A stretch of 64,000 bases of DNA from a virus. This document shows, one piece after another, positions 41,629 to 60,393 of this stretch. The notes under the pieces are model-generated. The model was not told where the DNA came from, did not search any database, and worked only from the letters and a program-made list of their open reading frames with translations. Positions within the stretch are counted from its first letter, which is position 1. Every line of letters begins with the position of its first letter. Position numbers and translations under genes: made by a program. The DNA lies in IMG/VR virus record IMGVR_UViG_3300036795_000115, positions 1 to 64,000 of that record, one strand, 5' to 3'.

Positions 41629-41897
41629 CCTATCTCGCCGAAGGCACCGACTTCTCCTCCGTCCTACTGCAGTACGGGCCCGGTGGGGCACTCGGCGCGA
41701 TCGCGCTGTGGTGGGCGTGGGTGATGTACAAGAACGAACGGGAGAACTCGAAGCGGGAACGGGAACGCAACGACCTGCTTGAGGCGGAGATCCGCAAGCT
41801 CAACGAGTCGATCCACTCCCAGTACATCCCCGTCCTCACCCGGGTCACCGACGCCCTGGCGAACTTCCTGCGGGCCACCCGCCGGGACGACCCGTGA
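41625..41897 (+). CDS. Membrane protein with coiled coil (90 aa)
   Basis: GTG start overlapping the previous stop. One membrane helix (GGALGAIALWWAWVMY) then a highly charged helix (NERENSKRERERNDLLEAEIRKLNESI segments). Possible holin partner or spanin-like protein. Confidence 0.6.
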   Translation: MTYLAEGTDFSSVLLQYGPGGALGAIALWWAWVMYKNERENSKRERERNDLLEAEIRKLNESIHSQYIPVLTRVTDALANFLRATRRDDP

Positions 41898-42064
41898 GCC
41901 CATGGCGGTGGCCACAAGCGAACGTGGACCGCCTGCTCACCGAGTCGAAGAAGCACCGCCGGGAACTGCTGGACACCGTGGCCCGCCTGGACGAGTTCGT
42001 TGAGGCGCTCAACGCGCAAACCCAGCGGCTCGAGAAGAAACATGATGAGGGGGATGACGCGTGA
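41894..42064 (+). CDS. Charged coiled-coil microprotein (56 aa)
   Basis: GTG in GTGA overlap. Basic N-terminus, heptad leucines, acidic C-terminus. No membrane helix. It lies between two membrane proteins of similar charge pattern. Unknown. Confidence 0.5.
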   Translation: MSPWRWPQANVDRLLTESKKHRRELLDTVARLDEFVEALNAQTQRLEKKHDEGDDA

Positions 42065-42477
42065 CCGACGACGGCAGCCGTGAACTTCTAACACTCGCGG
42101 CCTCGCTCACCGCCGCCGTGGACGGTCTACGCGAATCCATCGAGTCTCTGCTGAAGCGCACCCGCCGTTCGGAGAAGGTCATTGCGTCGATCGTGGTGAC
42201 GATCATCATGGATCTGATCTTCACCGGCGGGTTCATCTTCCTGTTCTACAACCAGAACCAAACAGCGGACGCGCTGGACGACACCCGCAACCAGGTGCTG
42301 TGCCCTCTGTTCGCATCGTGGCTGGGGACGTACAACCCGAACAGTCGCTCCCCGGGGCCGGACCGCGACACCTACATCGACGTGTTCTCCCAGATGCGCG
42401 TGCAGTACCAGCATTTGAACTGCACCACCCCGTTGGTGCCGAAGCCAACACCCACCACAGCGCCCGCTCCGAAGTAA
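42061..42477 (+). CDS. Membrane protein (138 aa)
   Basis: A helical N-terminus, one strong membrane segment (residues 41-63, VIASIVVTIIMDLIFTGGFIFLF) and an outer domain with two Cys that may bond; Pro/Thr-rich end. Common in this position in actinophages, called membrane protein. Role in lysis timing or exclusion unclear. Confidence 0.65.
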   Translation: MTDDGSRELLTLAASLTAAVDGLRESIESLLKRTRRSEKVIASIVVTIIMDLIFTGGFIFLFYNQNQTADALDDTRNQVLCPLFASWLGTYNPNSRSPGPDRDTYIDVFSQMRVQYQHLNCTTPLVPKPTPTTAPAPK

Positions 42478-43082
42478 TGGCGTCGCACCGGCCGGCACGC
42501 CGCTCCAGGTTCGAAATCTTCCTGGTGCTCAGCGTGGTAGCGATCGGTTCGGCGACGTGGATCGGGATCTCCGTCTCCCATCACCAGGACGATGAGAAGC
42601 GGACCGCGATGGCGCAACGCCAGGTCGCGCAACAACAGGCCAACACCCTGTCTGACCCGATCCTGAAACTGTGCGCCCAAGGCGGCGACGTAGGCGCCCG
42701 GCTGTCGGCCGCCGGGTTGTGCTCGGCGGCGGAGAAGGTGAAAACCGAACCCGACCCGGCCCCGTCCGGGCTGACCACCGCACAAGTCCAAGCCCTGATC
42801 AACACCGCGCTGGCCAGGCAGCAACCCGCCGGCCCCACCTCCACCCAGCTGACGGGGGCGGTGCAGGCGTTCATCACCGCGAACCCCACCCTGTTCAAGG
42901 CGCCAGCGCCGACCGCCGAGCAGATCCAGTCGGCGGTGAACACCTACCTACGCGCGCACCCGGTGCAGGTGCCGCAGCCAGCGCCGGTGTATCAGATGCC
43001 GGGCCTGGGTGGCTTCACCAGCGCCCCGCAACAGTCCTGGCCGCAGCGGTGGCCTGGCGGTCGGTCGTTCCCTCAGCGCTGA
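42477..43082 (+). CDS. Membrane-anchored periplasm-facing protein (201 aa)
   Basis: ATG in a TAATG overlap. Basic start, one membrane helix (IFLVLSVVAIGSATWIGISV), then a long Gln/Ala/Pro-rich outer part with two Cys. It is the last gene before a palindrome and the secreted-protein cassette. Confidence 0.6.
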   Translation: MASHRPARRSRFEIFLVLSVVAIGSATWIGISVSHHQDDEKRTAMAQRQVAQQQANTLSDPILKLCAQGGDVGARLSAAGLCSAAEKVKTEPDPAPSGLTTAQVQALINTALARQQPAGPTSTQLTGAVQAFITANPTLFKAPAPTAEQIQSAVNTYLRAHPVQVPQPAPVYQMPGLGGFTSAPQQSWPQRWPGGRSFPQR

Positions 43083-44141: not shown

Positions 44142-44151
44142 GCAATGACCG

Positions 44152-44349
44152 ATGCCGACCAGCGACGGCGGCAACAGTTCGGTAGCTGTCGGGCGAACGG
44201 ATGGAGCAGTGCTGCTCTCCATGCGCGCGCCCGGCAGTCCGGACGGCCTTTGTCTCACGTTGTGTCCGGAGGCCGTCCAAGAACTCATCGCCGCCCTCGT
44301 GAAAGCGCGACGAGAAGCATTCGGCTCGTGCTGGTCGTCCTCGGACTGA
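44152..44349 (+). CDS. Small hypothetical protein overlapping the sortase start (65 aa)
   Basis: Coding-like frame with LLSMRAPGSPDGLCLTLCPEAVQELIAALVKARRE. No good ribosome site. It overlaps the 5' end of the sortase frame by 88 bases, so either this gene or the long sortase N-terminus is wrong. I favour both, with sortase starting at 44262 or 44328. Confidence 0.5.
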   Translation: MPTSDGGNSSVAVGRTDGAVLLSMRAPGSPDGLCLTLCPEAVQELIAALVKARREAFGSCWSSSD

Positions 44350-44915
44350 CCCTCGCCGGGTGTTCGCACCCATCAGCCCAGTTGTCCCCGCCGCGCCTGA
44401 CCTCACCGCCGAGCTCGACGCCAGCACAGAGTGCGCCGGGGGTGTACCCGGCGGCGATCCGCATCTCCTCGATCAAGCTGAACAGCAACGAGTTCATGCA
44501 GGTCGGACTCAACGCGGACGGCACGATGGAAGAGCCACCGCTCACCCACCCCAAATTAGTTGCATGGTACAAGAAAAGCGTTGTGCCTGGTCAGACGGGG
44601 CCTAGCATCATCGTTTCGCATGTGAACGGCGACGGCATGGCCGGCGGGTTCGCCAAGCTCGACAACGTGAAGGTCGGCGACACGGTCGAGGTTGACCGCA
44701 CCGACAGCCAGACCGCCGTGTTCAAGGTCGTCGACACGAAGCTCTACGCCAAGGCTAGCTACCCGAGCTGGGCAGCCAAGGTCTTCGGCGACACCGACCA
44801 TCCCACGTTGCGGCTGATCACTTGCTCGGGCGACCTGGGCCCGGGGCCGATCTTCTACAAGTCGAACCGGGTCGTCTCCGCTGACCTGGTGCGCCTGCAG
44901 CCCAAGAGCCCGTAG
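44262..44915 (+). CDS. Class F-type sortase
   Basis: The catalytic domain has IRISSIKLNSNEFMQVGLNADGTMEEPP, then IIVSHVNGDG (catalytic His), DTVEVDRTDSQTAVFKVVDT and LRLITCSGDL (catalytic Cys) with a late Arg in YKSNRVV. This is the class F pattern of actinobacteria. The N-terminus is a positively charged stretch, a short hydrophobic segment and an LAGC lipobox, which would make it a lipoprotein. Sortases cut a sorting signal and join the protein to the wall; no LPxTG substrate is visible in the window. Start uncertain (44145, 44262 or 44328). Confidence 0.82.
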   Translation: MSGGRPRTHRRPRESATRSIRLVLVVLGLTLAGCSHPSAQLSPPRLTSPPSSTPAQSAPGVYPAAIRISSIKLNSNEFMQVGLNADGTMEEPPLTHPKLVAWYKKSVVPGQTGPSIIVSHVNGDGMAGGFAKLDNVKVGDTVEVDRTDSQTAVFKVVDTKLYAKASYPSWAAKVFGDTDHPTLRLITCSGDLGPGPIFYKSNRVVSADLVRLQPKSP

Positions 44916-45138
44916 TGATCTCGCCGGGGGAGCGGGCCGCCAGTGCTGTGTTGGCTTTCCTGGCGAGAGACCTCGGTAGGGCCATCTACCTCCAGCAGAA
45001 ACACCTCAAAGCCGAGGACGGCTCCTGCCTGGGCTGCCTGACTCAGCTGGCCCCACGGTGTGGCCCTGCATCATCCTGCGCCTCGCAGACGAATGCCTCG
45101 CCCGTCAGATACCGCTCCAGAGGAAGCCGTCCCCATGA
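44915..45138 (+). CDS. Small conserved-looking protein with an apparent frameshift
   Basis: The GTG at 44915 opens a frame with ASAVLAFLARDLGRAIYLQQKHL and CLGC. In this frame the sequence becomes Arg-rich nonsense after about 45055, but with a -1 shift there the protein continues as WPCIILRLADECLA and stops at 45136-45138, in ATGA overlap with the next gene. That ending fits the operon style, so either a sequencing slip, a mutation or recoding is present. Confidence 0.45.
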
Positions 45139-45281
45139 GCGACTGCCGGTGCGCTCAGCGCCTCGAAGAACTCGAACGCCGGTTGGCGCGGCTCGAGAAC
45201 ACCACCGCCGACATCGACCGCCATGTCTTGGCCGTCGAGGAGATCGTCACCCAGCTCGGGTCGGCGCCGACTAAGAGCTGA
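45135..45281 (+). CDS. Coiled-coil microprotein (48 aa)
   Basis: ATG at 45135. CRCAQRLEELERRLARLENTT is a heptad coiled coil, followed by a short helix. Precedes the hairpin at 45300. Unknown. Confidence 0.55.
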   Translation: MSDCRCAQRLEELERRLARLENTTADIDRHVLAVEEIVTQLGSAPTKS

Positions 45282-45299
45282 TCCACCCCCTTTAACCCC

Positions 45300-45353
45300 A
45301 GCCCTAGCCCCGGGCGCCGTTCGTCTCCTGTCGGTTTGCCCGGGGCTGGGGCT
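45300..45353 (+). terminator. Long hairpin before the lysis block
   Basis: Sixteen-base-pair stem with one G-T pair (AGCCCTAGCCCCGGGC against GCCCGGGGCTGGGGCT), 22-base loop, no T-run. It separates the sortase cassette from the peptidase and endolysin genes and may be an attenuator. Confidence 0.6.
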
Positions 45354-45376
45354 GGCCCACGTTTACAGGAGCCCAC

Positions 45377-46516
45377 ATGAAGTTCGGTAAGACGCGCACC
45401 CCCGAGCTGGCCACTAGCTACACCCGCAAGCCCCGCGCGGGCGGTGTCGCGTACAACCCCCGCCAGGTCGCCGCCGCCTACAACTGCCCCATCACCCAGT
45501 TCGACGGCACCGGCGTCACCGTCGGCATCGTCGAGCTCGGCGGCGGGTACAACCCGGCCGACCTGGTGGCGATGGGGCTCAAGGCGAACGTCACGGTCGT
45601 TGGTGTCGATGGGGCCAGTTCCAAGTCCGACGGCCCGGACGGCGCCGACGGTGAGGTGATGCTCGACGTCGAGGTGGTCGCGGCGGTCGCCCCCGGCGCC
45701 AAGCAGCGCGTCTACTTCGCCCCGAACACCGATCAGGGGTTCCTGGACGCCATCGTGCAGGCCGCTAACGAGTGCGACTACGTGTCGATCTCCTGGGGTG
45801 GGCCGGAGACCTCGTGGAGTAAGAAGACCGTCGCGGCCTACGCCGCCGCGTTCGCCGCCGCCCGAGCCAAGGGTGTGACCGTGTTCGCCGCCTCGGGCGA
45901 CTCCGGCAGCACCGACGGCACCCGCGCCAACACCACCGACTACCCAGCCTCCGACCCGTCCGTCGTCGGCTGCGGCGGCACGAAGCTGCTGCTCAACGCC
46001 GATGGCTCCCGCGCCTCTGAGGTCACCTGGGACGACTCGGACACCCAGTCCGCCACCGGCGGCGGCGTGTCCCGCCTGTTCCCCGGCCGCCAGGTCCCGG
46101 ACGTCGCCGGCAACGCCAGCCCGAACACCGGCTACCTGGTCAGTGTCGACGGGCAGTCCTTCCCGATCGGTGGCACGTCCGCTGTGGCTCCGTTGTACGC
46201 GGGCATGTCGGCGGTACTGCGCCAGGCGTACGGCAAGTCCTGGGACTTCCTCAACACGGTTGTCAGCAATCCGACGATCTGCTTCGACGTCACGATCGGC
46301 GACAACGGCGGCTACAAGGCCGGCCCCGGCCGCGACCAGGTCACCGGGTTCGGCGTGGTCGACATGGGCAAGCTGCTCGCGGTACTGCAGGGCGGTGGAC
46401 CCGTGGTCACCCCACCGCCGGTGGTTACCCCGCCGTCGACTGATGCGACCGCACTGCTGGTCAGCATCGAGACGCAGATCGCGGCGTTCCTCGCCGCACA
46501 GACGCACGGTCACTAA
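45377..46516 (+). CDS. Sedolisin-family (S53) serine peptidase
   Basis: 379 residues with the subtilisin-like fold and acidic triad of S53: Glu93 and Asp97 in GEVMLDVEV, the oxyanion Asp175 in ASGDSGS, and Ser268 in GGTSAVAPLYAG. No propeptide and no signal peptide, so it would be active without processing but needs release by lysis or a holin. A Pro/Val linker and a helical end (residues 345-379) follow. It is directly upstream of the endolysin (3 bases apart), so a lysis or tail-tip protease role is likely. Confidence 0.88.
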   Translation: MKFGKTRTPELATSYTRKPRAGGVAYNPRQVAAAYNCPITQFDGTGVTVGIVELGGGYNPADLVAMGLKANVTVVGVDGASSKSDGPDGADGEVMLDVEVVAAVAPGAKQRVYFAPNTDQGFLDAIVQAANECDYVSISWGGPETSWSKKTVAAYAAAFAAARAKGVTVFAASGDSGSTDGTRANTTDYPASDPSVVGCGGTKLLLNADGSRASEVTWDDSDTQSATGGGVSRLFPGRQVPDVAGNASPNTGYLVSVDGQSFPIGGTSAVAPLYAGMSAVLRQAYGKSWDFLNTVVSNPTICFDVTIGDNGGYKAGPGRDQVTGFGVVDMGKLLAVLQGGGPVVTPPPVVTPPSTDATALLVSIETQIAAFLAAQTHGH

Positions 46517-46518
46517 TC

Positions 46519-47628
46519 ATGGCCTGGCGGTACTCCGAGGAGCTCAAGGCGCGGACCGGGAACGGGTGGTCTGACGAACCGGAGCCGGAGACATCACGGT
46601 TGGCGATCCCGGAGAAGACGTCTCCGAACTCGTCACCGCGCGGCGCAGCTCCGGTTCGGCTCGTCATCTTGCACACCGCCGAGGGTGCTCGGACGGTGGC
46701 GGAGTTGGGTAACTACTTCGCCGCCGCCGCTGTGCAGGTCAGCTCCCACGTCGGCATCGACGATGACGGCATCGAGCAGTACGTGGACTACGCCCGGGAG
46801 GCGTGGACCACCCGCTCGGCGAACCCGATCAGTGACAACGCCGAGCTGTGCGGGTTCGCGGCGTGGACCCGGGAGCAGTGGATCAACGACCACATGCCGA
46901 TGCTGCGCAACGCCGCCTCGTGGGTCGCCGCTCGGTGCACCGCCCGGAACATCCCCGTCGTGAAGCTGACCCCGGCGCAGGTCGCCGCCGGCCAGCCGGG
47001 GGTGTGCGGGCACGTCGACTGGACGGTCGGCATGAAGGACGGGACGCACACCGACCCCGGTCCGGGGTTCCCGTGGGACGTCGTCATTTCGCTCGCTCGA
47101 GGTGGAGGAGTTCCCGTGGCCCAGGATGTGACCGCCCAGCAGGTCGACGAAATCCACCAGCAGCTTCTCGGCGTGTTGAAGGCGTGGCCCGGTGGCATCA
47201 CCGATGACAAGGGCACGCCCTACAACATGCTTCAGCATCTACTTCGTGTCTCCGTGAGCACGAACCAGGCGACGCTGATGTTGGCGCAGCTGCTCAAGCG
47301 GGCGCAGGCGAAACCGGCGGGGATGTTGCGCTCGGACGTGAACGAGATCGCCGCCACGGTGGCGCAGCACCCGGCGATCGCGGCGCTGGCCGCTCCGGAC
47401 ATCGCCACCGTGTCGTTCTGGAAGGACGCGGCTGAGCGCGCGGTCAAGGCCTTCGCCGGCTCGGCCCTGACCTTGTTCGGCGCGGGGCCTCTGGATGTGT
47501 TGCACATCGACTGGGAGTCGACGTTGAGCCTGTCCGCCGGTGCGGCCGTCGTAAGCCTGCTGATGTCGTTGGCGTCGTCGCAGATCGGGGCGCCGGGCTC
47601 TCCGTCTCTCGTGAAGGGAAAGTCATGA
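46519..47628 (+). CDS. Endolysin (amidase) with a C-terminal holin-like domain
   Basis: 369 residues. Residues 45-200 are an N-acetylmuramoyl-L-alanine amidase (amidase_2): LVILHTAEG with His52, CGHVDWT with His165, THTDPGPGFPW with His177 and Asp179. The middle (residues 200-290) is helical. Residues 296-369 read FWKDAAERAVKAFAGSALTLFGAG ... IDWESTLSLSAGAAVVSLLMSLASS ... GSPSLV, the two-helix pattern of the r1t-like phage holins, normally a separate protein. The stop overlaps the next small membrane gene (ATGA). Confidence 0.85.
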   Translation: MAWRYSEELKARTGNGWSDEPEPETSRLAIPEKTSPNSSPRGAAPVRLVILHTAEGARTVAELGNYFAAAAVQVSSHVGIDDDGIEQYVDYAREAWTTRSANPISDNAELCGFAAWTREQWINDHMPMLRNAASWVAARCTARNIPVVKLTPAQVAAGQPGVCGHVDWTVGMKDGTHTDPGPGFPWDVVISLARGGGVPVAQDVTAQQVDEIHQQLLGVLKAWPGGITDDKGTPYNMLQHLLRVSVSTNQATLMLAQLLKRAQAKPAGMLRSDVNEIAATVAQHPAIAALAAPDIATVSFWKDAAERAVKAFAGSALTLFGAGPLDVLHIDWESTLSLSAGAAVVSLLMSLASSQIGAPGSPSLVKGKS

Positions 47629-47753
47629 GCATTTCACTGCCGCTCGCCGTGATCGCCCTGCTGCTGGCCGTGTTCAGCTTTGTGCCGGTGGCGCACAACT
47701 ACCCGCTCCTCGCTGTCTCGGTGATTCTGCTGGCGATCGCTGTGATCGTGTAA
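47625..47753 (+). CDS. Two-helix membrane microprotein, possible second holin (42 aa)
   Basis: Almost wholly hydrophobic: MSISLPLAVIALLLAVFSF, a short turn, then PLLAVSVILLAIAVIV. Coupled on both sides (ATGA and TAATG). A holin, antiholin or pinholin-like protein is the most natural reading. Confidence 0.6.
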   Translation: MSISLPLAVIALLLAVFSFVPVAHNYPLLAVSVILLAIAVIV

Positions 47754-48124
47754 TGGCGGCGGTCAAAGTCGATCTGACCATCGAGCAAGGGTCGGACTGG
47801 CCGGGGTTGGCGTTCCCCATCTTCGACTCCGAAGGCGCCCCGTACGACCTGACCGGGTGCACCGCCCGGGGTCAGATCCGGCGGGTTCAGAATTCGGACC
47901 CGGCGCTGTTCACCTGGTCTACCTCTCCGGCCACCGGCGAAGGTTTGATCACCCTCGCCGGGAACACCCTCACTATTCGCGTGTTGGGTTCCGAGTCCAC
48001 GTCGTGGGACTGGAACACCGGGCGCTACGACATTTACCTGACCAACCCAGCGGCACCCGTGGGACAGCGTGTATTCCGCATCGCTGATGGTGCCGTGTAC
48101 CTCGACCTGGAAGTGACGAGATGA
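47753..48124 (+). CDS. Beta-rich baseplate/tail protein (123 aa)
   Basis: IEQGSDWPGLAFPIFDSEGAPYDLTGCTARGQIR and YDIYLTNPAAPVG resemble the N-terminal domain of BppU-like upper-baseplate proteins. Begins the fibre section behind the lysis genes. GTGA/ATGA overlaps. Confidence 0.7.
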   Translation: MAAVKVDLTIEQGSDWPGLAFPIFDSEGAPYDLTGCTARGQIRRVQNSDPALFTWSTSPATGEGLITLAGNTLTIRVLGSESTSWDWNTGRYDIYLTNPAAPVGQRVFRIADGAVYLDLEVTR

Positions 48125-48330
48125 GCAACCCTGTTCGCCCTTGTTTGGGCTGTGGTCAGAGCGATGATCACCCGCGACACGTCATTGACCTTGACGGTCA
48201 GAACGTCGCAAATTGGCATCACGACTGCCACTCGGTGATCACCAACTGTGAACTTTGCGCTCCCATTGTCAAGGGCGCAAAAGGCAAGACCGGGGACGAC
48301 CTCCGGAACTACATCATCGAGAAGGGCTGA
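48121..48330 (+). CDS. Zinc-binding hypothetical protein (69 aa)
   Basis: CLGCGQSDDHPRHV, WHHDCHS and CELC give a treble-clef-like set of ligands. It lies, oddly, between two fibre-type genes. Similar small proteins occur beside tail fibre genes in actinophages; role unknown. Confidence 0.6.
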   Translation: MSNPVRPCLGCGQSDDHPRHVIDLDGQNVANWHHDCHSVITNCELCAPIVKGAKGKTGDDLRNYIIEKG

Positions 48331-48332
48331 CC

Positions 48333-48740
48333 ATGACCAGCGGAGTCGTTCAGGTCGAGGCAAACGCACTGCTTACTTCCAGCGTGACGGGAGCGTCGTA
48401 CACCGCAGCCACGGGCGCGATCAACCTTGCACTCATCGTTACTGGTACGGCGTCGAGCGCAACCGTGGCGGGCACCGAGGCCACCAACGCTGGCGGGTCT
48501 ACCTACGCCCGTGCGGCCACTACCGGTAAGTGGGCTACCGCTGGTAGCGGCGCGATCGCCACCAACGCTGTCATCAGTTTCACGAACATGCCGGCCATCA
48601 CGGTGACCGGTATCGAGTTGTGGGACAGCGCGGGCACCCCGATTCGTCGGTGGTGGGGCACGCTGGGCACCAGCAAGGTACTGGGACTAGGAGACACACT
48701 TTCGTTCGCATCAGGTGCGATCTCGATCTCGATGGTCTGA
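48333..48740 (+). CDS. Small tail fibre-like protein (135 aa)
   Basis: Ala/Thr/Gly-rich beta protein with TYARAATTGKWATAGSGAIATNAVISFTNMP and GIELWDSAGTPIRRWWGTL, a pattern of phage tail or decoration modules. ATG at 48333 after a 2-base gap. Confidence 0.7.
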   Translation: MTSGVVQVEANALLTSSVTGASYTAATGAINLALIVTGTASSATVAGTEATNAGGSTYARAATTGKWATAGSGAIATNAVISFTNMPAITVTGIELWDSAGTPIRRWWGTLGTSKVLGLGDTLSFASGAISISMV

Positions 48741-48752
48741 TTGTCAAGGTGT

Positions 48753-48829
48753 CTCCCACGCCAAAGGCGTAGGAGCCCGCACGTATGCCCCGGTCACTGT
48801 TGGTTGATGTGGAAGGTGGCCGGGGCTGA
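48753..48829 (+). promoter_or_regulatory. Hairpin plus 14-codon leader peptide before the fibre gene
   Basis: CTCCCACGCC-AAA-GGCGTAGGAG (48753-48775) is a nearly perfect stem whose right arm contains TAGGAG, the ribosome site for a 14-codon frame (48785-48829). That frame ends in TGATG with the fibre start at 48829. Folding would hide the ribosome site, so translation of the fibre could be controlled. Confidence 0.45.
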
Positions 48830-51228
48830 TGGCAGTCGCATTCGACGCTGTAGGGCCGTCCTCGGCGGGCAACACCGGTACCAGCTCGGTCACGTCGGCG
48901 TCGTGGTCGCACACCTGCTCCGGCGCAAACCGGGTAGTGGTCGTCGGCGCGGCGATCGACAACGGGTCCTCTGGTAGCACCACGTGCACCGCCACTTACG
49001 GTGGCACCGCCATGACGCCCCTCGGGAAGGTCGCCTCAAACAACGCCACCGGCGGGTTCGTGCAGATGTTCGGGCTCGTTAGCCCGCCGGCCGGGGCGTC
49101 CACCGTCGCGTTGACGGTGTCCACAGCGTCGATCGTGTGCGCCGGGTCGGTGTCATTCACTGGCGCGGGTGGGTTCGGCACAGCGGTCACCGCTTTCGGC
49201 AGTAGCGCGACACCATCAGTCGCTGTCACCGGCACCACTTCTGGGAACCTGATCGTCGATGCGGTGTGCAACGGGTCGGCGATCACCAGTAGTCATCAAA
49301 CCGACCGGTGGCTGAAGAACACCTCGCTGGGTTTTGCTGCTGCCAACGCGTCGTCGTCCACGGCAGCCGCTGGCGGTTCGGTCACCATGAGCTATGCGGT
49401 GACGTCGGATTTCTGGGGCATTGTCGCGGTCGAGGTGCTGGCCGCGTCGACAAGCGCCGCCGGTACCGCATCTTTGGCCGCCGCGACGACGGTCACGGCC
49501 GCCGCGTTCACCTCCACGACCGGTGCTGCCGCCTTGAGCGCTGCCGCCACGGTCATCGCCGCTGGGCTGGGCACCTACTTCCAGGTGGCCGCCCTTGCCG
49601 CGACCACGTCGGTCGCGGCCACCGGTGTGCGGGCAGCCCCGGCGGCCGTGACGCTCGGTGCGGCCACGTCGGTGACCGTGGCGGCGACGGGGGGCTACTT
49701 CCTGGCGGCCCCTCTGGCGGCGACCACGTCAGTGACGGCCGCCGCGACGCGGGCGCTCGCCGCCTCCGCGTCATTGGCTGCGTCGAGCTCCGTCACCGCG
49801 ACTGGCACTGGCGCCTACTTCCAGGTGGCTGCTCTTGGGGCTGTCACCTCGGTTGCCGCCGCCGGGGTTGCGACCGCCGCCGGCACGGCCGCCCTCACTG
49901 CCGTTACGTCGGTCGGGGCGACCGGAGTGCGGGTCGCGCCGGGTGCCTCGGCTCTCGTCGCCGCGTCTTCGGTGTCCGCGACCGCGTTCGTCTCCACGAC
50001 CAGTTCGGCGTCTCTCGCCGCGAGCACCGCTGTGTCCGCGACCGGTGTGCAGATCGCCCCGGGCGCCGCCGCGATCACAGCAGCCACCACGGTCACGGCA
50101 GATGCGGTTCGGGCGCAGCCGGGCACGGCCGCACTGGCGGCTGCTACCAGTGTCGCGGCCACCGGCTTTGCCACCACGACCGGCACCGCCGCCCTCGCGG
50201 CCTCGACCACGGTCGGCGCCGCCGGTGTGCAGATCGCACCAGCCACCGCCGCCCTCGCTGCGACGACGGTGGTGGCCGCGACCGGTGTGCGGGGGCAGTC
50301 GGCGACCGCCGCCCCTGCCGCACTCACATCCGTGTCGGCCACCAGTTTTGCGACCACGGCCGGCTCGGCGTCTCTGACCGCTGTCACCTCGGTGACCGCC
50401 GATACCGCCGGGTCCACCAGTGCAACGGCGTCCCTCGCGGCTAGTACCGCCGTGACCGCGTCCGATGTGGTCACGATGCCCGCGACGACCTCGCTCACCA
50501 GCACAACCTCGGTGTCTGCCGCCGCCCTAGCCGCGCTGGGTGCTGCCGCCGCGCTCAGCGCAGCCACTACGGTCACCGCCGCAGCGGTCCGTGTTCAACC
50601 CGGTGTTGCTGCCCTGTCGGCCGGCACAGCTGTGTCCGCGACCGGGACCGCCTCGACCACCGCCTCAGCGGCCCTCAGCGCCGCCACCTCGGTCACCGCC
50701 GACACCGCCGGCGGCAGCTCCGGTATCGCAACCCTGTCCGCGACCACGACGGTGGCCGCGTCCGGTGTCGTCACCACCACGGCGACAGTGTCCCTTGGCG
50801 CGACCACGACGGTCGGCGCCGCCCCAGCAGGTGCAACAGCGGGTGCGGCCACGCTGTCCGCCACCACAACGGTGTCGGCGGTCGGAACCCTGCTGGTCGC
50901 GGCTGCCGCGTCGTTGTCGGCGGCCACCGCGCTCACCGCGAACGCGGCCAACGTCGGCGGCGCCACCCTGGCTGCATCCACCACCGTGGCTGCCCAGGCG
51001 TTCGCCGATTTGGCGGCTACCGCCACGTTGGGCGCGGTCACCACGGTTGCCGGTGGCGCCCAGTGGTCCACCCAGGGCGCGGCGATGCTGCGGGCGGTCA
51101 CCATCGTGACCGTGTTGGTGCGCACCAACTGGGTGCCGAAACCCGCTGCGCCCACCGCTGTGCTCACCGTGCACGCCGGGCAACCGACGGTGCTGGTCAG
51201 CCCGTTCGCCGTGTCCGTGGGGGTGTAG
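48829..51228 (+). CDS. Giant repeat tail fibre (799 aa)
   Basis: Residues 1-205 are a beta domain (FDAVGPSSAGNTGTSSVTS ... VVVGAAIDNGS) related in style to the N-terminus of 39328-41343. From residue 207 to about 745 the protein is a run of roughly 26 units of 19-21 residues, pattern TAALAA(T/S)TSVTATGV. The C-terminal 50 residues leave the pattern. Repeats with small residues and Thr every second position suggest a long beta solenoid shaft. Composition is almost only Ala, Thr, Ser, Val and Gly. Confidence 0.75.
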   Translation: MAVAFDAVGPSSAGNTGTSSVTSASWSHTCSGANRVVVVGAAIDNGSSGSTTCTATYGGTAMTPLGKVASNNATGGFVQMFGLVSPPAGASTVALTVSTASIVCAGSVSFTGAGGFGTAVTAFGSSATPSVAVTGTTSGNLIVDAVCNGSAITSSHQTDRWLKNTSLGFAAANASSSTAAAGGSVTMSYAVTSDFWGIVAVEVLAASTSAAGTASLAAATTVTAAAFTSTTGAAALSAAATVIAAGLGTYFQVAALAATTSVAATGVRAAPAAVTLGAATSVTVAATGGYFLAAPLAATTSVTAAATRALAASASLAASSSVTATGTGAYFQVAALGAVTSVAAAGVATAAGTAALTAVTSVGATGVRVAPGASALVAASSVSATAFVSTTSSASLAASTAVSATGVQIAPGAAAITAATTVTADAVRAQPGTAALAAATSVAATGFATTTGTAALAASTTVGAAGVQIAPATAALAATTVVAATGVRGQSATAAPAALTSVSATSFATTAGSASLTAVTSVTADTAGSTSATASLAASTAVTASDVVTMPATTSLTSTTSVSAAALAALGAAAALSAATTVTAAAVRVQPGVAALSAGTAVSATGTASTTASAALSAATSVTADTAGGSSGIATLSATTTVAASGVVTTTATVSLGATTTVGAAPAGATAGAATLSATTTVSAVGTLLVAAAASLSAATALTANAANVGGATLAASTTVAAQAFADLAATATLGAVTTVAGGAQWSTQGAAMLRAVTIVTVLVRTNWVPKPAAPTAVLTVHAGQPTVLVSPFAVSVGV
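49447..51066 (+). repeat. About 26 tandem repeats of 57-63 bases (first fibre)
   Basis: Each unit encodes TAALAATTSVTATGV-like strands with variable loops such as RAAPA or ATTTG. Unit length is not fixed. The coding strand is over 70 per cent GC and rich in GCC, ACC, GTC. Confidence 0.8.
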
Positions 51229-51230
51229 TC

Positions 51231-54200
51231 GTGGTTGCCACGATCAACGCCATCACCACGTCCACTGCCAACACCGAGGCGTTCTCCACCAACAACACCG
51301 CGTTCTCGCTGACCACCACCGCCAACGGTGCGTGCGTGGTCGCGGTCTGTATCACGCGCAGCACCACGGTCAGTATCGCGTCCCTGTCCGGCGGTGGCGT
51401 AACTGAGTGGGACCAGGTCGGCGTTTACTCGTTTGCCGTGAACGGCTCCTTGCCGGCGCAGATCTTCTCGGTGTTCGTCGGGCGGGTGACCAGCTTCGGC
51501 TCGAGCCAGACCGTGACCGCGACCGGCTCAGCGTCGCTGTCCAGCGTCAGCGGCTCGTTTGACTGGCAGATTCTGTCGACGTCCGGCATGGCCGCTGGCA
51601 CGTCGTGGGTTGTGGAGTCCTCAGGCAAATCCCTCAACACGACCAGCTCCACGAACATCACGATGCCCACATTGGCGCCGGCCGCCGCCGGGCGTGCCTA
51701 CATCGGCTACGGCGACCCGCTCAACTCGGCGACCAACACCGGGATCACCTCCGGCTACACCGGGACCATCGAGGCGAGCACCGGAAATCAGTGGATCAGC
51801 AACCTGTCCGTCTCCACGTCGCAGTCTCCGATCGGCAAGCAAGGCTCCGCCGGGGTGTCCGATGCCATCGGCCTCCTGCTCTACGCCACGAACCCAGACA
51901 CGTCTGTCGCCACTCTCCTGAACATCGGCAGTGCGTCGGGTAAGAACCACTTCGAGTTGCAGACCGCGCTCAGTGGGTACGGCGACATCACCACCGCCTC
52001 CCAGGCGGACATCGCCGCCGGCTGGAACACCGACCCGCAGTTCGTGTCTGTCACCGCCGATGGTGCGGTGCAGTTCTCGGTGCGGATGGACGCACCGACC
52101 ACGGACGGTACGGCGTTCCCCCGGTCTGAGCTGCGGGAGATGGCCACCGACGGGGTCACCAACTACGCGTTCAACGCCAGCTCGGGGGTGCACTACATCC
52201 GGGGGCGGTCGCGGATTACCGCGATCACCCCGACCCGCAAGCGGGTGGTCACCGCGCAGATCCACGACGGGTCAACCGGCGACATTCTGAAGTTCTACAC
52301 CCAGGAGAACAGCACCACCGGGGTCTGCGAACTACGCACCGCCGTGGGCGGTACGGGTACCGGTCAGCCGCACCTGGACAACAACTATGTCCTGGGTACC
52401 TGGTTCGACTGGATGATCTACATCAATGCTGGTACGTGGCAGCTGTACTACAACGACTTCGCCACCCCCGTGTGGGACTCTGTCGCCTATGCCGCCGCCG
52501 GTGGCACGTTCGTGTTCAGCGGGGCGACCGAGTACTACGCCAAGGCCGGTTGCTACCCGAACAGCAACGAAACGTTCGACACCGCGACCCTGTACAGCAC
52601 GGTTGAGCTGACGAACTTCCAGCACTGGCACACCGGCTGGCCGACACCGACCGCGATCGTCAACACCGCAACCGCCGCCCTGGCTGCCAGCACGTCGGTT
52701 ACGGCCGCCGGGGCGATCGCGCAGGCAGGTACGGCGACGCTTGGTGCGACCACGTCGGTCAGTGCGACTGGTGTGCGGGAGCAGCCCAGCACGGCGACGT
52801 TGGTCGCTACGACTTCGGTCGCCGCGACCGGTACATACGGTGCGGTCTCGAGCGCGGCCCTGTCTGCGTCGAGCTCGGTCGCCGCCGGCGCGGTCCGCGT
52901 TCAGCCCGCCACCGCGACCTTGTCGGCGGCCACATCGGTCGCGGCTGCCGGTGTCGCCACCACAGCCGGCGCGGCGGCCCTGGCCGCTACGACTTCGGTC
53001 ACCGCCGCAGCCGTTGCGACCACCACGGGTACCGCGTCTCTGTCGGCTACGACTTCGGTTGCGGCCTCGGCCATCGACATCGCCCCCGGTGCCTCGACGC
53101 TGGTTGCCACGACCTCCGTTGCGGCCACGGCCTTCGCCACCACGACCGGCACGGCCAACCTCGCGGCCTCGACCACGGTCGGCGCTTCGGCCGTGGACCT
53201 GGTGGCCGGGTCGGCCGCGTTGTCGGCCGCGACCTCGGTCACGGCCGCCGGTTTCGTTTCGACGGCCGGTTCGGCCGCGTTGGCCGCGTCGACGGCCGTC
53301 ACCGCCACCGGGGTTGGGCAAACGTCGGGCTCTGCGTCGCTTACAGCGGCCACCACAGTCACTGCTGCGGGTGTTCGGGTTCAGCCGGCTACCGCGACCC
53401 TGACCAGCGCAACAACGGTCACAGCGGCGGCCACAGCGGCCACGACCGGTACCGCCGCACTGTCCGCTGCCACGTCGATGGGCGCTGGCGCGGTTGACAT
53501 CGCACCCGGTGCGGCGACCATCGCGGCTGCCACGTCGGTCACGGCCACTGGCCGGCAGACGTTTTTCGCTACCGCCGCCCTGAGCTCGACCACAGCGGTT
53601 ACGGCGTCGGGTGTGCGGACGCAGCCGGCCACCGCAACGTTGGCCTCGAGTACCTCGGCCACGGCCGCCGCGTTCGCCACCACCACCGCAACCGCAACCC
53701 TGACGGCTGCCACCACGGTCACGGCCGACACCTCCGGCGGATCCTCCGGTACAGCGGCGTTGACCGCGATCACCTCCGTCAGTGCGACGGGTGTGCAGAT
53801 CGCGTCCGCCGCCGCTGCGCTGGCAGCGACCACCACGGTCACCGCTGCCGCGAACTCGACGTTGGGTGCGACGGCCGCGCTCGCCGCCTCAGGCACCGTG
53901 GTGGCCGCCGGAGTGCGGGAGCAGCCCAGCGCGGCGGCCCTGAGCTCGGCCACGTCGGTCACCGCGACCGGAACGGCCACCCTCGGCGCAACAGCCGCGC
54001 TCACGGCCAACACCACGGTCGCGGCCTCGGGAGCTGTCACCGCTGTGGCGACCGCCGCCCTGGCGGCCTCGACCACGGTCACGGCCGGAGCGGTACGCGA
54101 ACAACCGGCGACGGCCGGTCTAACCGCCGCCACGACGGTCAGCGCGACCGGGGTACGGGAACAGCCGGCCACCGCCGCGCTCAGCGCGGTCACCTCGGTC

Positions 54201-54788
54201 AACGCGGTCACCGCCAGTTCCACCGACGGGGCCGCGACCCTGGCCGCCAGTACGTCGGTTACGGCTGCCGCGCAGGTGGTCGCCGTCGCGTCCGCGTCCC
54301 TCGGCGCCACGACCTCGGTCACCGGCACCGGCACGGTCAATCAGCCGGCGACCGCAACCCTGTCCGCGAGCACGGCCGTCAACTCCACCGCGACACCCGG
54401 CACCCCCGGTGGTGCGTCGCTGCAAGCGGTCACCGTGCTCACCGCCCAAGCCGTACTGGGTGTGCAGGCCACGGCGTTGCTGTTCGCCGGCACCTCCGTG
54501 GTCGCGGTCGTGCACTTGTCCGCGTTCACCACCGCAGCGCTGTCCGCGGCCACATCAGTGACGGCGCTGGCACACCACCCCAGCTGGGAGCCCGACGTCG
54601 GGGACCCGGCGCTGCTCAACGCGGTGCACGCGTTGCCGCCGGTCACCGTGGCGTCGGTGGCCGCTACGGTGCGGCCGATGATCAGCATCCACGCCGGAAT
54701 AGCCGCCGATGTGGTCGGCGTGTCAGCCGGTAGCCCCCGGACCCTGGGCCCGTTCGTGCAGGCCGGTGCACCGCAGGCCTTGGACTAG
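51231..54788 (+). CDS. Giant repeat tail fibre with a PL7 alginate-lyase-like domain (1185 aa)
   Basis: GTG start 2 bases after the previous stop. Residues 1-220 repeat the N-terminal beta domain of the first fibre. Residues 225-470 hold RSELRE (298-303), QIH (343-345) and YYAKAGCY (435-442), in the order and spacing of polysaccharide lyase family 7, in which Arg, Gln, His and Tyr act on uronic acid chains. Residues 480-1115 are about 31 units of 20 residues (TATLGATTSVSATGV plus REQPS type). The C-terminal 70 residues form a cap. Probably a receptor-binding depolymerase. Confidence 0.82.
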   Translation: MVATINAITTSTANTEAFSTNNTAFSLTTTANGACVVAVCITRSTTVSIASLSGGGVTEWDQVGVYSFAVNGSLPAQIFSVFVGRVTSFGSSQTVTATGSASLSSVSGSFDWQILSTSGMAAGTSWVVESSGKSLNTTSSTNITMPTLAPAAAGRAYIGYGDPLNSATNTGITSGYTGTIEASTGNQWISNLSVSTSQSPIGKQGSAGVSDAIGLLLYATNPDTSVATLLNIGSASGKNHFELQTALSGYGDITTASQADIAAGWNTDPQFVSVTADGAVQFSVRMDAPTTDGTAFPRSELREMATDGVTNYAFNASSGVHYIRGRSRITAITPTRKRVVTAQIHDGSTGDILKFYTQENSTTGVCELRTAVGGTGTGQPHLDNNYVLGTWFDWMIYINAGTWQLYYNDFATPVWDSVAYAAAGGTFVFSGATEYYAKAGCYPNSNETFDTATLYSTVELTNFQHWHTGWPTPTAIVNTATAALAASTSVTAAGAIAQAGTATLGATTSVSATGVREQPSTATLVATTSVAATGTYGAVSSAALSASSSVAAGAVRVQPATATLSAATSVAAAGVATTAGAAALAATTSVTAAAVATTTGTASLSATTSVAASAIDIAPGASTLVATTSVAATAFATTTGTANLAASTTVGASAVDLVAGSAALSAATSVTAAGFVSTAGSAALAASTAVTATGVGQTSGSASLTAATTVTAAGVRVQPATATLTSATTVTAAATAATTGTAALSAATSMGAGAVDIAPGAATIAAATSVTATGRQTFFATAALSSTTAVTASGVRTQPATATLASSTSATAAAFATTTATATLTAATTVTADTSGGSSGTAALTAITSVSATGVQIASAAAALAATTTVTAAANSTLGATAALAASGTVVAAGVREQPSAAALSSATSVTATGTATLGATAALTANTTVAASGAVTAVATAALAASTTVTAGAVREQPATAGLTAATTVSATGVREQPATAALSAVTSVNAVTASSTDGAATLAASTSVTAAAQVVAVASASLGATTSVTGTGTVNQPATATLSASTAVNSTATPGTPGGASLQAVTVLTAQAVLGVQATALLFAGTSVVAVVHLSAFTTAALSAATSVTALAHHPSWEPDVGDPALLNAVHALPPVTVASVAATVRPMISIHAGIAADVVGVSAGSPRTLGPFVQAGAPQALD
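52663..54572 (+). repeat. About 31 tandem 60-base repeats (second fibre)
   Basis: Units are almost all exactly 60 bases, so the pattern lines up at the same phase for 29 successive 60-base blocks. Loops alternate among REQPA, ATTTG, QIAPG and others, and neighbours are less alike than distant units, which indicates old expansion and shuffling. Confidence 0.85.
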
Positions 54789-54795
54789 GAGACTC

Positions 54796-54969
54796 ATGAC
54801 GAGTGGCAATGACCCGCTGGCAACGTCGAGCTACCTCATCTGCAAATACATGCGGTTCGGGTGCACGTGGGTGGCCCGCTGGCTACCCGGCGGCGAGATG
54901 CGCGCCCGCACCCAACGGATAGAGCACGAGAAGACCTGCCGGTTCCAGTACCAGCAGACCCGCCCCTAG
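54796..54969 (+). CDS. Small basic protein at the end of the structural operon (57 aa)
   Basis: ATG at 54796 behind TAGGAG. Two Cys, several Trp/Arg; no membrane helix. Ends before the terminator. Unknown. Confidence 0.6.
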   Translation: MTSGNDPLATSSYLICKYMRFGCTWVARWLPGGEMRARTQRIEHEKTCRFQYQQTRP

Positions 54970-55021
54970 ACCGTTCGGCCGCCCTCGACCGGCTCGTCAC
55001 CGGGGCGGTCGGACGTGCAAA

Positions 55022-55077
55022 AGCCCGCTCGATCAGCGTTGTAGGCAATCCCCGTGCCTCCGCTGGTCGAGCGGGCT
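55022..55077 (-). terminator. Terminator between convergent operons
   Basis: Seventeen-base-pair stem (AGCCCGCTCGATCAGCG against CGCTGGTCGAGCGGGCT, one wobble), 22-base loop. On the minus strand it ends in TTTTGC, a proper intrinsic terminator for the leftward operon; on the plus strand it lacks the T-run but may still act. Confidence 0.85.
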
Positions 55078-55107
55078 CATTCGTGTGTCCGGGGTAAACT
55101 GCCCGGC

Positions 55108-55190
55108 GCAGGGTGTAGCTCAACGGTTCAGAGCGTCAGGCGGCCTAGGTAACGACCTGGATACCCCGGTAAAAGTCCGGGCGCCCTGCG
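55108..55190 (+). tRNA. tRNA-like sequence, degenerate or unusual
   Basis: Acceptor GCAGGGT paired with GCCCTGC, canonical D arm GCTC-AACGGTTCA-GAGC, anticodon stem TCAGG/CCTGG, T stem CCCGG/CCGGG. But the anticodon loop has 15 bases (CGGCCTAGGTAACGA), not 7, and the T loop is TAAAAGT in place of TTCRANT. No anticodon can be read. Either a decayed tRNA, an inserted loop or a tRNA mimic. Confidence 0.5.
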
Positions 55191-55192
55191 CT

Positions 55193-55396
55193 TCAGGGGC
55201 GCTTCCGCATACACGCGGTGAACCCCGGCCAAGGCTGCGGACCCGCCTGGGTTACGGTGCGGTACCACGACCGGCTCCCCGGTCCGCGTGTCCAACCCGG
55301 CGGCATGTCCTCCGGCACGTCGTCGCCGTCGAGGATCACCTCGTCGCCAACGGCCGGTTGATCGGGTGGGTCAACCCAAAGCCAGACGTCGCCCAT
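55193..55396 (-). CDS. Hypothetical protein (67 aa)
   Basis: ATG at 55396 shares a base with the previous stop. Acidic, Pro/Trp-rich with WTRGPGSRSWYRTV; last gene of the leftward operon. Unknown. Confidence 0.55.
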   Translation of the reverse strand: MGDVWLWVDPPDQPAVGDEVILDGDDVPEDMPPGWTRGPGSRSWYRTVTQAGPQPWPGFTACMRKRP

Positions 55397-55581
55397 CAGG
55401 CCGCCGCCCCGCACTTCGCGCACACCGTGCTGGTCACACCGCTGCGGTTGGTCGTCGTCACCCACATGTGCGGGTTGTCCGCCGAACCACACGACCCGGT
55501 GCCCATCAACCGGCGGATCCACGCACGGAGCTCGTCGAGCCGCTCAAGGTGCTCGGTGCGCCGGTAGAGATCGGGGTCCAC
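55396..55581 (-). CDS. Hypothetical protein with Cys pairs (61 aa)
   Basis: GTG start. Charged N-terminal helix (HLERLDELRAWIRRL) and C-terminal CG...CAKCG with His, a probable zinc site. Coupled downstream. Confidence 0.55.
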   Translation of the reverse strand: MDPDLYRRTEHLERLDELRAWIRRLMGTGSCGSADNPHMWVTTTNRSGVTSTVCAKCGAAA

Positions 55582-55592
55582 GGCCCGGGAGC

Positions 55593-56036
55593 CTACCTCC
55601 GGTCAGACACAGCGGCCTGATTCGGGGGCTGCTTCTTCGCCCGGATCCGCCACGGGGTACGACACTTGCGGCAGCGTTCCCACTGCCCGGACTTACGGGC
55701 CCGGGCCACCGCCTCACCGCACGGCGGGCACGCTTTGACCTTCGCCTCACGGTCTTCGACCGTGTTGTTCACAGTGTCCGGGTGCCGGTACGCCTTGAGG
55801 AACACGTACCCGACGAGTCCGACCACGGCGGCGAGCAGCCACGGCCAGGTCGTTGCCCAGTTGGCGACCACGGCGGCTAGGAGCAAACAGAACAGGGCGA
55901 ACAGCACCACATAGCCCAGGGCGGCGTTGCCCTCCGTGCTGCTCGCCGTAGACCGGTACCTGCGCCGGCGGCCGCCGAACGACGTGCCCACCCGCAGCGG
56001 GGTGAACGGGATACGCGCGGACACCCACAACCTCAT
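55593..56036 (-). CDS. Membrane protein with C-terminal zinc ribbon (147 aa)
   Basis: Arg-rich N-terminus, two membrane helices (residues 40-60 and 66-85), then CPPCG and CRKC separated by 18 residues. ATG at 56036 behind GAGGAG. A membrane-tethered zinc-ribbon protein of unknown use; exclusion of other phages is one guess. Confidence 0.65.
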   Translation of the reverse strand: MRLWVSARIPFTPLRVGTSFGGRRRRYRSTASSTEGNAALGYVVLFALFCLLLAAVVANWATTWPWLLAAVVGLVGYVFLKAYRHPDTVNNTVEDREAKVKACPPCGEAVARARKSGQWERCRKCRTPWRIRAKKQPPNQAAVSDRR

Positions 56037-56102
56037 CGGGGTTCTCCTCGTTCCGGTGGTAGGTCATCGTCGCAGGTGAGCGGGGTGCTTATGTAGAGCC
56101 GG

Positions 56103-56318
56103 TCAGGTAATGGGCGGCTTGAACGAGTAGCCCCACAACGACGACGTCAGTCGAACTCCGTTGGCGAACACCAACACGGACAGGAAGTCGGGCTCGTCCT
56201 TGTCGAACACCTTCTCGACGAGGGGGCTGGTGAACTCGCCGCCGGCGCAACAGTCCTCCCATGACACGTCGTAGACGATGCCCACGGTGAGATCGTCAGC
56301 GGCCACGGCGTCGGTCAC
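56103..56318 (-). CDS. Hypothetical protein (71 aa)
   Basis: Acidic beta-rich protein with WEDCCAGGEF; GTG start within a GGAGACACCGTGA box. Looks like an SH3-type small domain (VGIVYDVSW, VFANGVRL). Unknown. Confidence 0.6.
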   Translation of the reverse strand: MTDAVAADDLTVGIVYDVSWEDCCAGGEFTSPLVEKVFDKDEPDFLSVLVFANGVRLTSSLWGYSFKPPIT

Positions 56319-56602
56319 GGTGTCTCCCCGGTCGCATCGGTTCGCTTCAACACCGCACGGGCCTGATCGAGCGCCCCAACCAGGTCAGCGTCTTCGTCGT
56401 TCCATGCGTCCAACACCAGGGTCAGCGCGGTGGCCAGTTGTTCGTTCGCCGCATACAACGTTGCCCCCGGGTAGCAGTCCGGGCACACCACGTCGCCGCA
56501 CGTTTGGCAGAACGCGTTCTTGCGTGGGGGCGGTGTCAGCGACGCGGACGGTGGTTCGTATCCGTCGGGTAAGCCCGGCGTCTTGATCGGCCAATCTCTC
56601 AC
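56315..56602 (-). CDS. Zinc-binding hypothetical protein (95 aa)
   Basis: CQTCGDVVCPDC in the middle and a helical C-terminal half (TALTLVLDAWNDED). GTG start in a GGAGACACCGTGA box. Unknown. Confidence 0.6.
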   Translation of the reverse strand: MRDWPIKTPGLPDGYEPPSASLTPPPRKNAFCQTCGDVVCPDCYPGATLYAANEQLATALTLVLDAWNDEDADLVGALDQARAVLKRTDATGETP

Positions 56603-57009
56603 GGTGTCTCCATCCGTACCGCAGCCTTCAGGTTCTCCTCTAGTCGGTCACGGATGTCGATCCACGCTCTCCGCCCGGCCTTGGGCAGGTCGTGGGCGAA
56701 CCCTTCCCGGGCCAGGTGTTCGACCAGTGCGGTGGCGGCCTCCACGATTGGCGCCTGAGCGGCCACCTGGGCTCGGAGCTTTACCAACTCGTCCTGCGTG
56801 CTCCGGGAGACCGCGAACACGCGTAGCTTCTCGGCGGACCTGATGATCGGCACCTCGTCATGCCTCGACTCCAGCAACTCGTCGGGCGTGTTGTCCGAGT
56901 AGATGGTGCAGCTGCACGACTTCGGGAACCGGCAGCAGCTGGGGTCGTATTCACCTTCGGAGCAGTAAGGCCACTGCTCGATGCACGACAGCAGACGTCG
57001 CTCGCTCAC
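56599..57009 (-). CDS. Hypothetical protein sharing the IVEAATALVE helix (136 aa)
   Basis: N-terminus with six Cys (CIEQWPYC, CCRFPKSCSC), then a coiled region and QAPIVEAATALVEHLAREG, shared with other genes here. GTG start behind GGAGG. Confidence 0.6.
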   Translation of the reverse strand: MSERRLLSCIEQWPYCSEGEYDPSCCRFPKSCSCTIYSDNTPDELLESRHDEVPIIRSAEKLRVFAVSRSTQDELVKLRAQVAAQAPIVEAATALVEHLAREGFAHDLPKAGRRAWIDIRDRLEENLKAAVRMETP

Positions 57010-57269
57010 GACTTGCCTCCGTTCAGGGCGTCGGTCAGGGCGGTCAGCAGCTCGGCGGTTTTCGCGCCGGGGCCAGGGCCAACTCCGACGCCCGCTCGGC
57101 AGTGTTCGACCAGTGCGGTGGCGGCCCGCTCCACCAGGCCACGCCGGTCAAACTCGGCCATGACGATCGGCAACGACGCGTCGACGGCGGGCACCTCGCC
57201 GTCCCGGATCGCAGTTCGGACGTTGTCCAGAGCATCGGCCAGTTCGTCGGGGGAGGGCTGCTCGCTCAC
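57006..57269 (-). CDS. Hypothetical protein of the SPDEL/EFDRRG set (87 aa)
   Basis: PSPDELADAL at the start, MAEFDRRGLVERAATALVE in the middle, Gly/Pro loop, short helix. Shares both modules with 58004-58495. GTG start in a GTGA overlap. Confidence 0.6.
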   Translation of the reverse strand: MSEQPSPDELADALDNVRTAIRDGEVPAVDASLPIVMAEFDRRGLVERAATALVEHCRAGVGVGPGPGAKTAELLTALTDALNGGKS

Positions 57270-57700
57270 CGGCGCACCTCCCTGATCAGCGCCGCCAGCA
57301 AGTCGCCGTCCACCTCGTCAACCGAGTGCGGGTCGTAGCTCTCAGCCAGCCTGAACGCCGCCTGAACGATCGCCTCGCGCTCATTCAGCTCCGCATCGCG
57401 CACGGTCAGCAGCTCACCCCGCCGGTCGTACTCGGCCAGTAGGTACTGCAAGTCGCGGTTACCGGACCCGAGGTATACCTCCGCAGCTCGAAGGCGTGCA
57501 CGCTGCACCAGGTCGGCCAGGCAGTCCGGGCCGTGCTCAATGCTGCCGTCGTCGCGCTCGCCCATCACCGTCTCCTCCCAACCAAACCCACCAACGCTGC
57601 TTGCCGTGTCCCGGCGTAGCGGGTTTGGCCCGTCGGTTGCCTCGTACAGGCCCAGCTCCTCGGCCTGCCGCACAAGACCCGACAGTGGGTCGTCGGTCAC
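57266..57700 (-). CDS. Hypothetical protein of the EFDRRG set (144 aa)
   Basis: Contains LLAEYDRRGELLTVRDAELNEREAIVQAAFRLAE, related to the modules of its neighbours. An internal ATG at 57565 sits behind a strong ribosome site inside a 34-base repeat, so a shorter 99-residue product may also be made, or be the main one. Confidence 0.6.
   Translation of the reverse strand: MTDDPLSGLVRQAEELGLYEATDGPNPLRRDTASSVGGFGWEETVMGERDDGSIEHGPDCLADLVQRARLRAAEVYLGSGNRDLQYLLAEYDRRGELLTVRDAELNEREAIVQAAFRLAESYDPHSVDEVDGDLLAALIREVRR
57562..57595 (-). repeat. 34-base direct repeat, copy 1 of 2
   Basis: On the minus strand GTTGGTGGGTTTGGTTGGGA, then GG, one variable base, GACGGTGATGG. The second copy lies at 58773-58806 with one mismatch. 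Both end at an ATG start codon, and both contain GGGAGG. Confidence 0.75.
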
Positions 57701-57876
57701 GGTGACTCCTCGTCCGCGTTTGACCAGTGGTCATCTGCTCCACGTACGAGCTTGCAGGGGCCGACCCACACGGTCTCTCCCTTGACAATGGCGTCGACCG
57801 GGACGTTGTCGCGCCACTTGTCACCGTAGGCGTTAAACAGGATCACGTAGCGGGCCGCACGTTCCTCGTTGGTCAC
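57697..57876 (-). CDS. Hypothetical protein (59 aa)
   Basis: GTG start in the GGAGACACCGTGA box. ARYVILFNAYGDKWRDNVPVD, then a beta KGETVWVGPCKLV. Unknown. Confidence 0.6.
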   Translation of the reverse strand: MTNEERAARYVILFNAYGDKWRDNVPVDAIVKGETVWVGPCKLVRGADDHWSNADEESP

Positions 57877-60122: not shown

Positions 60123-60205
60123 CGCTTCACCGTCATAACGATGAGCAGCAGGGTGATCACGGACAGCTGGAACTGGATCAAGGCGATCTGGGTGGACGTC
60201 TTCAT
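60119..60205 (-). CDS. Membrane micropeptide (28 aa)
   Basis: MKTSTQIALIQFQLSVITLL and a short basic end: a single membrane helix. Overlaps both neighbours by four bases and has an acceptable ribosome site, so it is likely real. Confidence 0.55.
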   Translation of the reverse strand: MKTSTQIALIQFQLSVITLLLIVMTVKR

Positions 60206-60387: not shown

Positions 60388-60393
60388 GCTCTA

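Follow-up and report, generated by a model that had tools for sequence, protein, structure and literature searches.

An amidase endolysin and a holin of the r1t family are encoded as one chain in the phage represented by the window, the 64,000-nucleotide stretch analysed here, which covers positions 1 to 64,000 of a 68.7 kb virus contig (IMG/VR record IMGVR_UViG_3300036795_000115). The gene (46519-47628, plus strand) is a single open frame of 369 codons, uninterrupted on inspection. The fusion recurs with three types of enzyme in the window and its relatives, no second r1t holin was found in any of the four records, and start signals recur inside the gene directly after the enzyme. From these sequences it is proposed, with a probability of about one half, that the one gene may give two lysis polypeptides, the full endolysin-holin chain and a free linker-holin, which would act together at the membrane lesion. 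The features concerned are listed in Table 1.

Table 1. Features of the fused lysis gene and its immediate neighbours in the window.
Feature	Position	Strand	Basis
Serine protease gene, subtilase/mycosin-like	45377..46516	+	PF00082, E 4.7e-9
Fused lysis gene (leader, Amidase_2, linker, r1t holin; 369 aa)	46519..47628	+	Profile matches; L010, L184 and L185 built alike
N-terminal leader MAWRYSEELKARTGNGWSDEPEPETS	46519..46596	+	Alignment; retained in L184 and L010 despite swapped enzyme
Amidase_2 catalytic domain, residues 44-182	46648..47064	+	PF01510, E 1.9e-11; zinc ligands intact
Internal Shine-Dalgarno GGTGGAGGAG (GGAGG at 47104-47108)	47101..47110	+	-10.4 kcal/mol
Probable internal translation unit, linker and holin, 170 aa, from GTG at residue 200	47116..47628	+	Shine-Dalgarno; equivalents in relatives
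r1t-family holin domain, residues 298-366	47410..47616	+	PF16945, E 1.5e-22; two hydrophobic segments
Hydrophobic microprotein, 42 aa	47625..47753	+	4-base ATGA overlap with fusion stop

The zinc ligands of the catalytic domain (H52, H165 and D179) are invariant in the alignment columns of four lysins, and a profile built from these four lysins matched the amidase structures of XlyA and AmpD. Among PHROGs, the fusion protein matched endolysin families as well as phrog_443, annotated as 'holin' (E 9.2e-21). The match to Phage_r1t_holin (PF16945) scores 79.9 bits, about three times the cut-off of 26.9, and covers profile positions 2-70 of 72. A preliminary description of the gene had proposed an endolysin fused to an r1t-like holin and had suggested a search of its C-terminus against holin families; that search gave the PF16945 match at residues 298-366 (E 1.5e-22), and with the PF01510 match and the three relatives it bears the proposal out. 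The boundaries given there (45-200 and 290-369) are close to the profile limits, and the end motif GSPSLV pointed out as r1t-like does agree, within the C-terminus GSPSLVKGKS, with the family ending G-x-x-G-(T/S)-x-S-x-V.

By hydropathy alone, the only peaks in the whole chain lie at residues 312-328 and 336-352, the first of them modest (1.33). Charges in the holin part include K/R residues at 302-310 and 366-368 and an acidic loop at 326-333. Two other classes of lysis protein were considered and rejected. SAR (signal-arrest-release) endolysins carry a weakly hydrophobic transmembrane segment at the N-terminus, and since no segment within residues 1-300 exceeds the hydrophobicity threshold applied, the window protein is not of this class. 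Type II pinholins of the S21 type have a very short N-terminus ahead of their first helix and a SAR endolysin as partner; in the window protein helix 1 comes after some 300 residues (after about 110 in the shorter chain), which rules out this assignment, and the absence of a SAR endolysin part also disfavours it. No Rfam family matched within 45000-48500, and no close DNA relative of 46519-63000 was found among annotated phages.

The same in-frame architecture was found in three further IMG/VR contigs (L010, L184 and L185) from two IMG samples. The catalytic domain ahead of the common linker-holin is Amidase_2 in the window, Peptidase_M15_4 in L184 (E 6e-11) and a lysozyme-like domain in L010/L186 and L185. 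The label 'lysozyme-like' is read from the motifs of this domain, for which Pfam, PHROGs, NCBIfam and PDB gave no match that could be used. The first 25 residues are common to the window, L184 and L010 in the alignment, and the residues just before the linker differ in all four genes. Both the linker (dN/dS 0.19, window against L184) and the holin (0.13 for the window against L010 and likewise against L185) are under purifying selection.

An open frame alone is weak proof of such a fusion, because GC-rich DNA often leaves long chance frames before small genes. In a scan of 183 loci, many r1t holins were found to have a long in-frame extension consisting of Arg/Pro-rich nonsense that ends at the normal holin start, and the exceptions were the window protein and L010. 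The long holin frames of L119, L156, L093, L135 and the F1 mycobacteriophages were rejected for this reason; L188, picked up by a pattern match to the linker, was a chance match, and L193-L197 are ordinary separate holins. The window extension, by contrast, is not a chance frame, since it encodes a recognisable enzyme with its zinc ligands and recurs in three contigs. Two further members were then gained by an alignment-based scan, giving a total of four, all related to one another. A search of the genome-contig collection gave no relative, the phage and plasmid collections gave amidase matches or separate holins among the matches listed, and the linker alone had no convincing relatives in the phage collection.

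Directly after the enzyme, the sequence GGTGGAGGAG-TTCCC-GTG (47101-47118) places a GTG codon in frame behind a strong Shine-Dalgarno signal. Measured as pairing energy (kcal/mol) against the 16S tail, the signal of GTG 47116 ranks fourth among 508 internal in-frame start codons of window genes and first among the 31 within the fusion gene, and it exceeds most of the 26 window gene starts listed. An equivalent GTG lies at the same junction in L184 (3885), L010 (2737) and L185 (4016), and ranks 1/21, 1/21 and 2/24 within the three relatives. In each of the four genes the signal of the internal site exceeds that of the full-length start (-10.4 against -2.9 kcal/mol in the window; -9.9/-1.7, -9.5/-6.4 and -6.9/-2.9 in the others), the site of L185 (-6.9) being weaker than the other three. 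GGAGG stands 5-7 bases before the internal GTG in three of the four (window, L010 and L184), and among 339 internal in-frame GTG codons no other was so preceded, apart from L184's own equivalent.

Under synonymous shuffling, no gene taken by itself gave a significant Shine-Dalgarno signal (p 0.44 for the window gene; p 0.30 and 0.50 for L010), as codon choice often yields such a signal, and the case therefore rests on recurrence. The residues encoded at the site vary (GGGVP, GGDD, PEDD), as does the codon phase in the case of L010; that the DNA motif recurs while these differ supports an internal start. GTG 47116 is thus probably a second translation start, from which linker and holin alone would be made. 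It lies about 98 codons ahead of the holin boundary. At that boundary (47390-47410) no good Shine-Dalgarno was found; the preliminary description had suspected a start near 47390, and GTG 47410, the candidate closest to it, shows a weak signal of -3.2 kcal/mol. It had also held that an internal start producing separate proteins would speak against a fusion. This is probably true in part: a free linker-holin is probably made from GTG 47116, but no separate endolysin would be released, as no stop codon follows the enzyme part. Signals of a similar kind were seen just after the amidase in the lysins of Propionibacterium phage PHL141N00 (L004, codon 195; AGGAG and GTG) and Rhodococcus phage Perlina (L192, codon 191; AAGGAG/AGGAG-type signal and GTG), and judging from these sequences internal starts may be common in such amidase lysins. 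Internal starts in endolysin genes, including those of mycobacteriophages, have been proven by experiment (PMC9430671).

The upstream gene ends 2 bases before the fusion start in the window, L184 and L185; with the weak Shine-Dalgarno of the fusion's own start, this makes translational coupling or re-initiation likely. The gene before the lysin seems to be modular, being a protease in the window (45377-46516) and an unrelated protein in L184 (2410-3333) and L185 (2343-3407), though in all three it ends in a Pro-rich region followed by a similar tail (e.g. DATALLVSIETQIAAFLAAQTHGH). Further upstream, a phage sortase was identified both in the window (44145-44915; PF04203, E 1.6e-15) and in L010 (665-1444), in each case behind a lipoprotein-like N-terminus. 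Between the tail and lysis genes of the window (about 41630-43082) lies a run of small proteins, apparently with one helix each, the first of which (LLQYGPGGALGAIALWWAWVMYKNERENSKRERER...) has a charged tail like that of LysF1b. A nuclease-like gene is located immediately after the fusion, ahead of the microprotein, in L184 (4394-4777), L185 (4537-4923) and L010 (3228-3611; SNase-like, E 0.0017, below the Pfam cut-off) and is absent there in the window.

The 42-residue microprotein had no family match in profile searches; its counterpart is nearly identical in L184 (about 4781-4909) and related in L185, and L010 has a different one further downstream. Its presence agrees with the preliminary description, which had also supposed that the control of timing might differ from known systems; this second point is not implied, as the order of lysin, two-helix holin and small membrane gene with ATGA overlap is common in actinophages (PMC13056207).

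Elsewhere in the window, two different terminase large subunits are encoded on opposite strands, at 22586-24178 (phrog_9/19179) and 60432-61934 (minus strand, phrog_38), which may mean that the contig is chimeric, that a second element is present or that the phage is unusual. A Ku homologue was identified at 16282-17067 (minus strand; PF02735, E 2.9e-36); Ku homologues are present in a few mycobacteriophages. Two long repeat proteins rich in Ala, Thr, Ser and Val, with units like TAALAATTSVTA, occupy 48829-54788, and a similar one is found in L184 (5956-8211). An adjacent pair of tRNA-Gln genes with anticodons TTG and CTG is located at 17932-18080 (minus strand).

From the features of the gene we infer the production of both polypeptides, their ratio and topology, their co-assembly and the delivery of enzyme at the lesion. 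The full chain would be scarce, its translation relying on re-initiation behind the preceding gene, and the start at GTG 47116 would give linker-holin alone, probably in larger amount, so that a few membrane-tethered endolysin-holin chains would be found together with more free linker-holin chains. Both products would enter the cytoplasmic membrane and keep their two termini on the inner side, an orientation expected from the charges of the holin part and from the N-in/C-in topology predicted for its homologue LysF1a (PMC13056207). With both ends inside, the amidase would lie on the cytoplasmic face and wait there, tethered among the free linker-holin chains. Once enough holin has gathered, free and amidase-bearing holins would break the membrane jointly, and the enzyme would gain access to the wall along the edge of the lesion that it helped to form. 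A single gene would in this way set both timing and enzyme load. The 42-residue hydrophobic protein may also be needed for lysis, by analogy with the best-studied homologous pair, in Girr and NormanBulbieJr, where wild-type lysis is supported by the one-helix partner but not by LysF1a without it (PMC13056207); the holin part may therefore not be the main hole-former.

This last point bears on the strongest rival explanation, in which the holin part is a mere membrane anchor or export device and the holes are left to the microprotein or to other one-helix proteins. The behaviour of LysF1a without its partner, the hydrophobic microproteins behind the fusions (in L010 at a greater distance) and the one-helix genes that seem to be present upstream at about 41.6-43.1 kb are all in keeping with it. 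An anchor would, however, hardly require that the whole family profile, loop and end motif included, be kept under purifying selection, and a conserved internal start making an enzyme-free holin would be pointless; this explanation is thus considered unlikely. It is less likely again that the chain is cut after synthesis into ordinary separate proteins, for instance in the Gly-rich linker at about 194-200 and perhaps by the neighbouring phage protease. The linker sequence RGGGVP is flexible and the subtilase-like gene (PF00082) lies directly upstream, but no protease gene adjoins the fusion in L010, the neighbour in L184 and L185 belongs to no recognised protease family, and no cleavage site is conserved, the pre-linker residues differing in all four.

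Rather improbable, too, is an incidental loss of a stop codon that joined two neighbouring genes to no functional end, with the internal GTG as the scar of an old gene start. In PHL141N00, endolysin and holin share a frame with only a stop and a few bases between them, and one base change could fuse them; since the genes are in frame and one stop apart, such a fusion needs little. Against a functionless event, each of the four known members has retained the fusion while the enzyme was exchanged between three types, and the internal start is found well ahead of the holin boundary rather than at it. The sequences rather suggest that the fusion came first and was then kept through exchange of the enzyme part. 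Although the completeness of the virus contig is unknown, an assembly or sequencing error is refuted by the three other contigs with the same in-frame fusion and different enzymes, which make any error or accident private to the window contig very unlikely.

In textbook lysis, the holin sets the timing and a free endolysin then escapes through the holin holes. The fusion chain physically ties these two steps, which are normally carried by separate proteins; in a chain that acts as both holin and endolysin, release and enzyme delivery would become one event and the amount of enzyme would be bound to that of holin. Tentatively, and with somewhat less confidence than in the two products themselves, the system may be described as one in which a single molecule serves as endolysin and hole-former, the internal start sets the ratio of loaded to empty holin, the enzyme crosses solely as a part of the lesion that it forms, and enzymes are exchanged freely between phages on a constant holin chassis. 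Such a chain would allow a strong test of the need for an enzyme to be freed from the membrane before it can cut the wall. The occurrence of three enzyme types on one chassis indicates that different enzymes can be accommodated and that the tether may be all that is required, and the fusion suggests a natural template for membrane-tethered lysins.

The r1t holins, amidase lysins and internal lysin starts are each already known; no r1t-holin fusion of this kind was found in the literature available as open-access texts. The endolysins LysP7951, LysPollywog, Ms6 LysA, CTP1L and LysIME-EF1 resemble the window gene in having one gene, an in-frame interdomain start and a shared stop (PMC9430671), and two-polypeptide endolysins of this type also occur in mycobacteriophages (PMC9430671). 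Their shorter polypeptide either is a wall-binding part or combines such a part with a second catalytic one, whereas that of the window is a predicted membrane holin; their internal starts are proven experimentally and that of the window gene is predicted from sequence. A natural holin-endolysin fusion, with a one-helix holin of the TpeE family, is described for Clostridium sporogenes (WP_163247266.1; PMC9527704). It is like the window protein in that holin and endolysin form one natural chain, but the holin comes first and the enzyme last, while in the window the enzyme precedes a two-helix r1t holin. The window protein is accordingly not placed with the TpeE-type fusions, as the order is reversed and the holin family different. 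The enzyme module of the window gene is exchanged among relatives, and the portion of the C. sporogenes account consulted makes no mention of an internal start (PMC9527704).

Separate r1t holins, such as ORF48 of Lactococcus phage r1t, LysF1a of Girr and gp20 of Gordonia phage Gudmit, have the same PF16945 domain, and the window holin shares roughly 40-55% identity with actinophage members in matched stretches. They are about 75-90 codons long, and each begins at a start codon of its own shortly (a few residues) ahead of the FW motif, whereas the window domain is preceded by 297 residues. In PHL141N00, as in the window, an r1t-type holin comes after an amidase lysin without a change of frame, and an internal GTG with AGGAG lies after the amidase, but a stop codon parts the two genes. 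The actinophage cassette of lysA, two-helix and one-helix genes (LysF1a/LysF1b) has the same order and the same ATGA overlap as the window (PMC13056207). The 42-residue microprotein of the window differs from LysF1b in having no charged tail, and the window differs from the cassette as a whole in that its lysin and first membrane protein form one chain.
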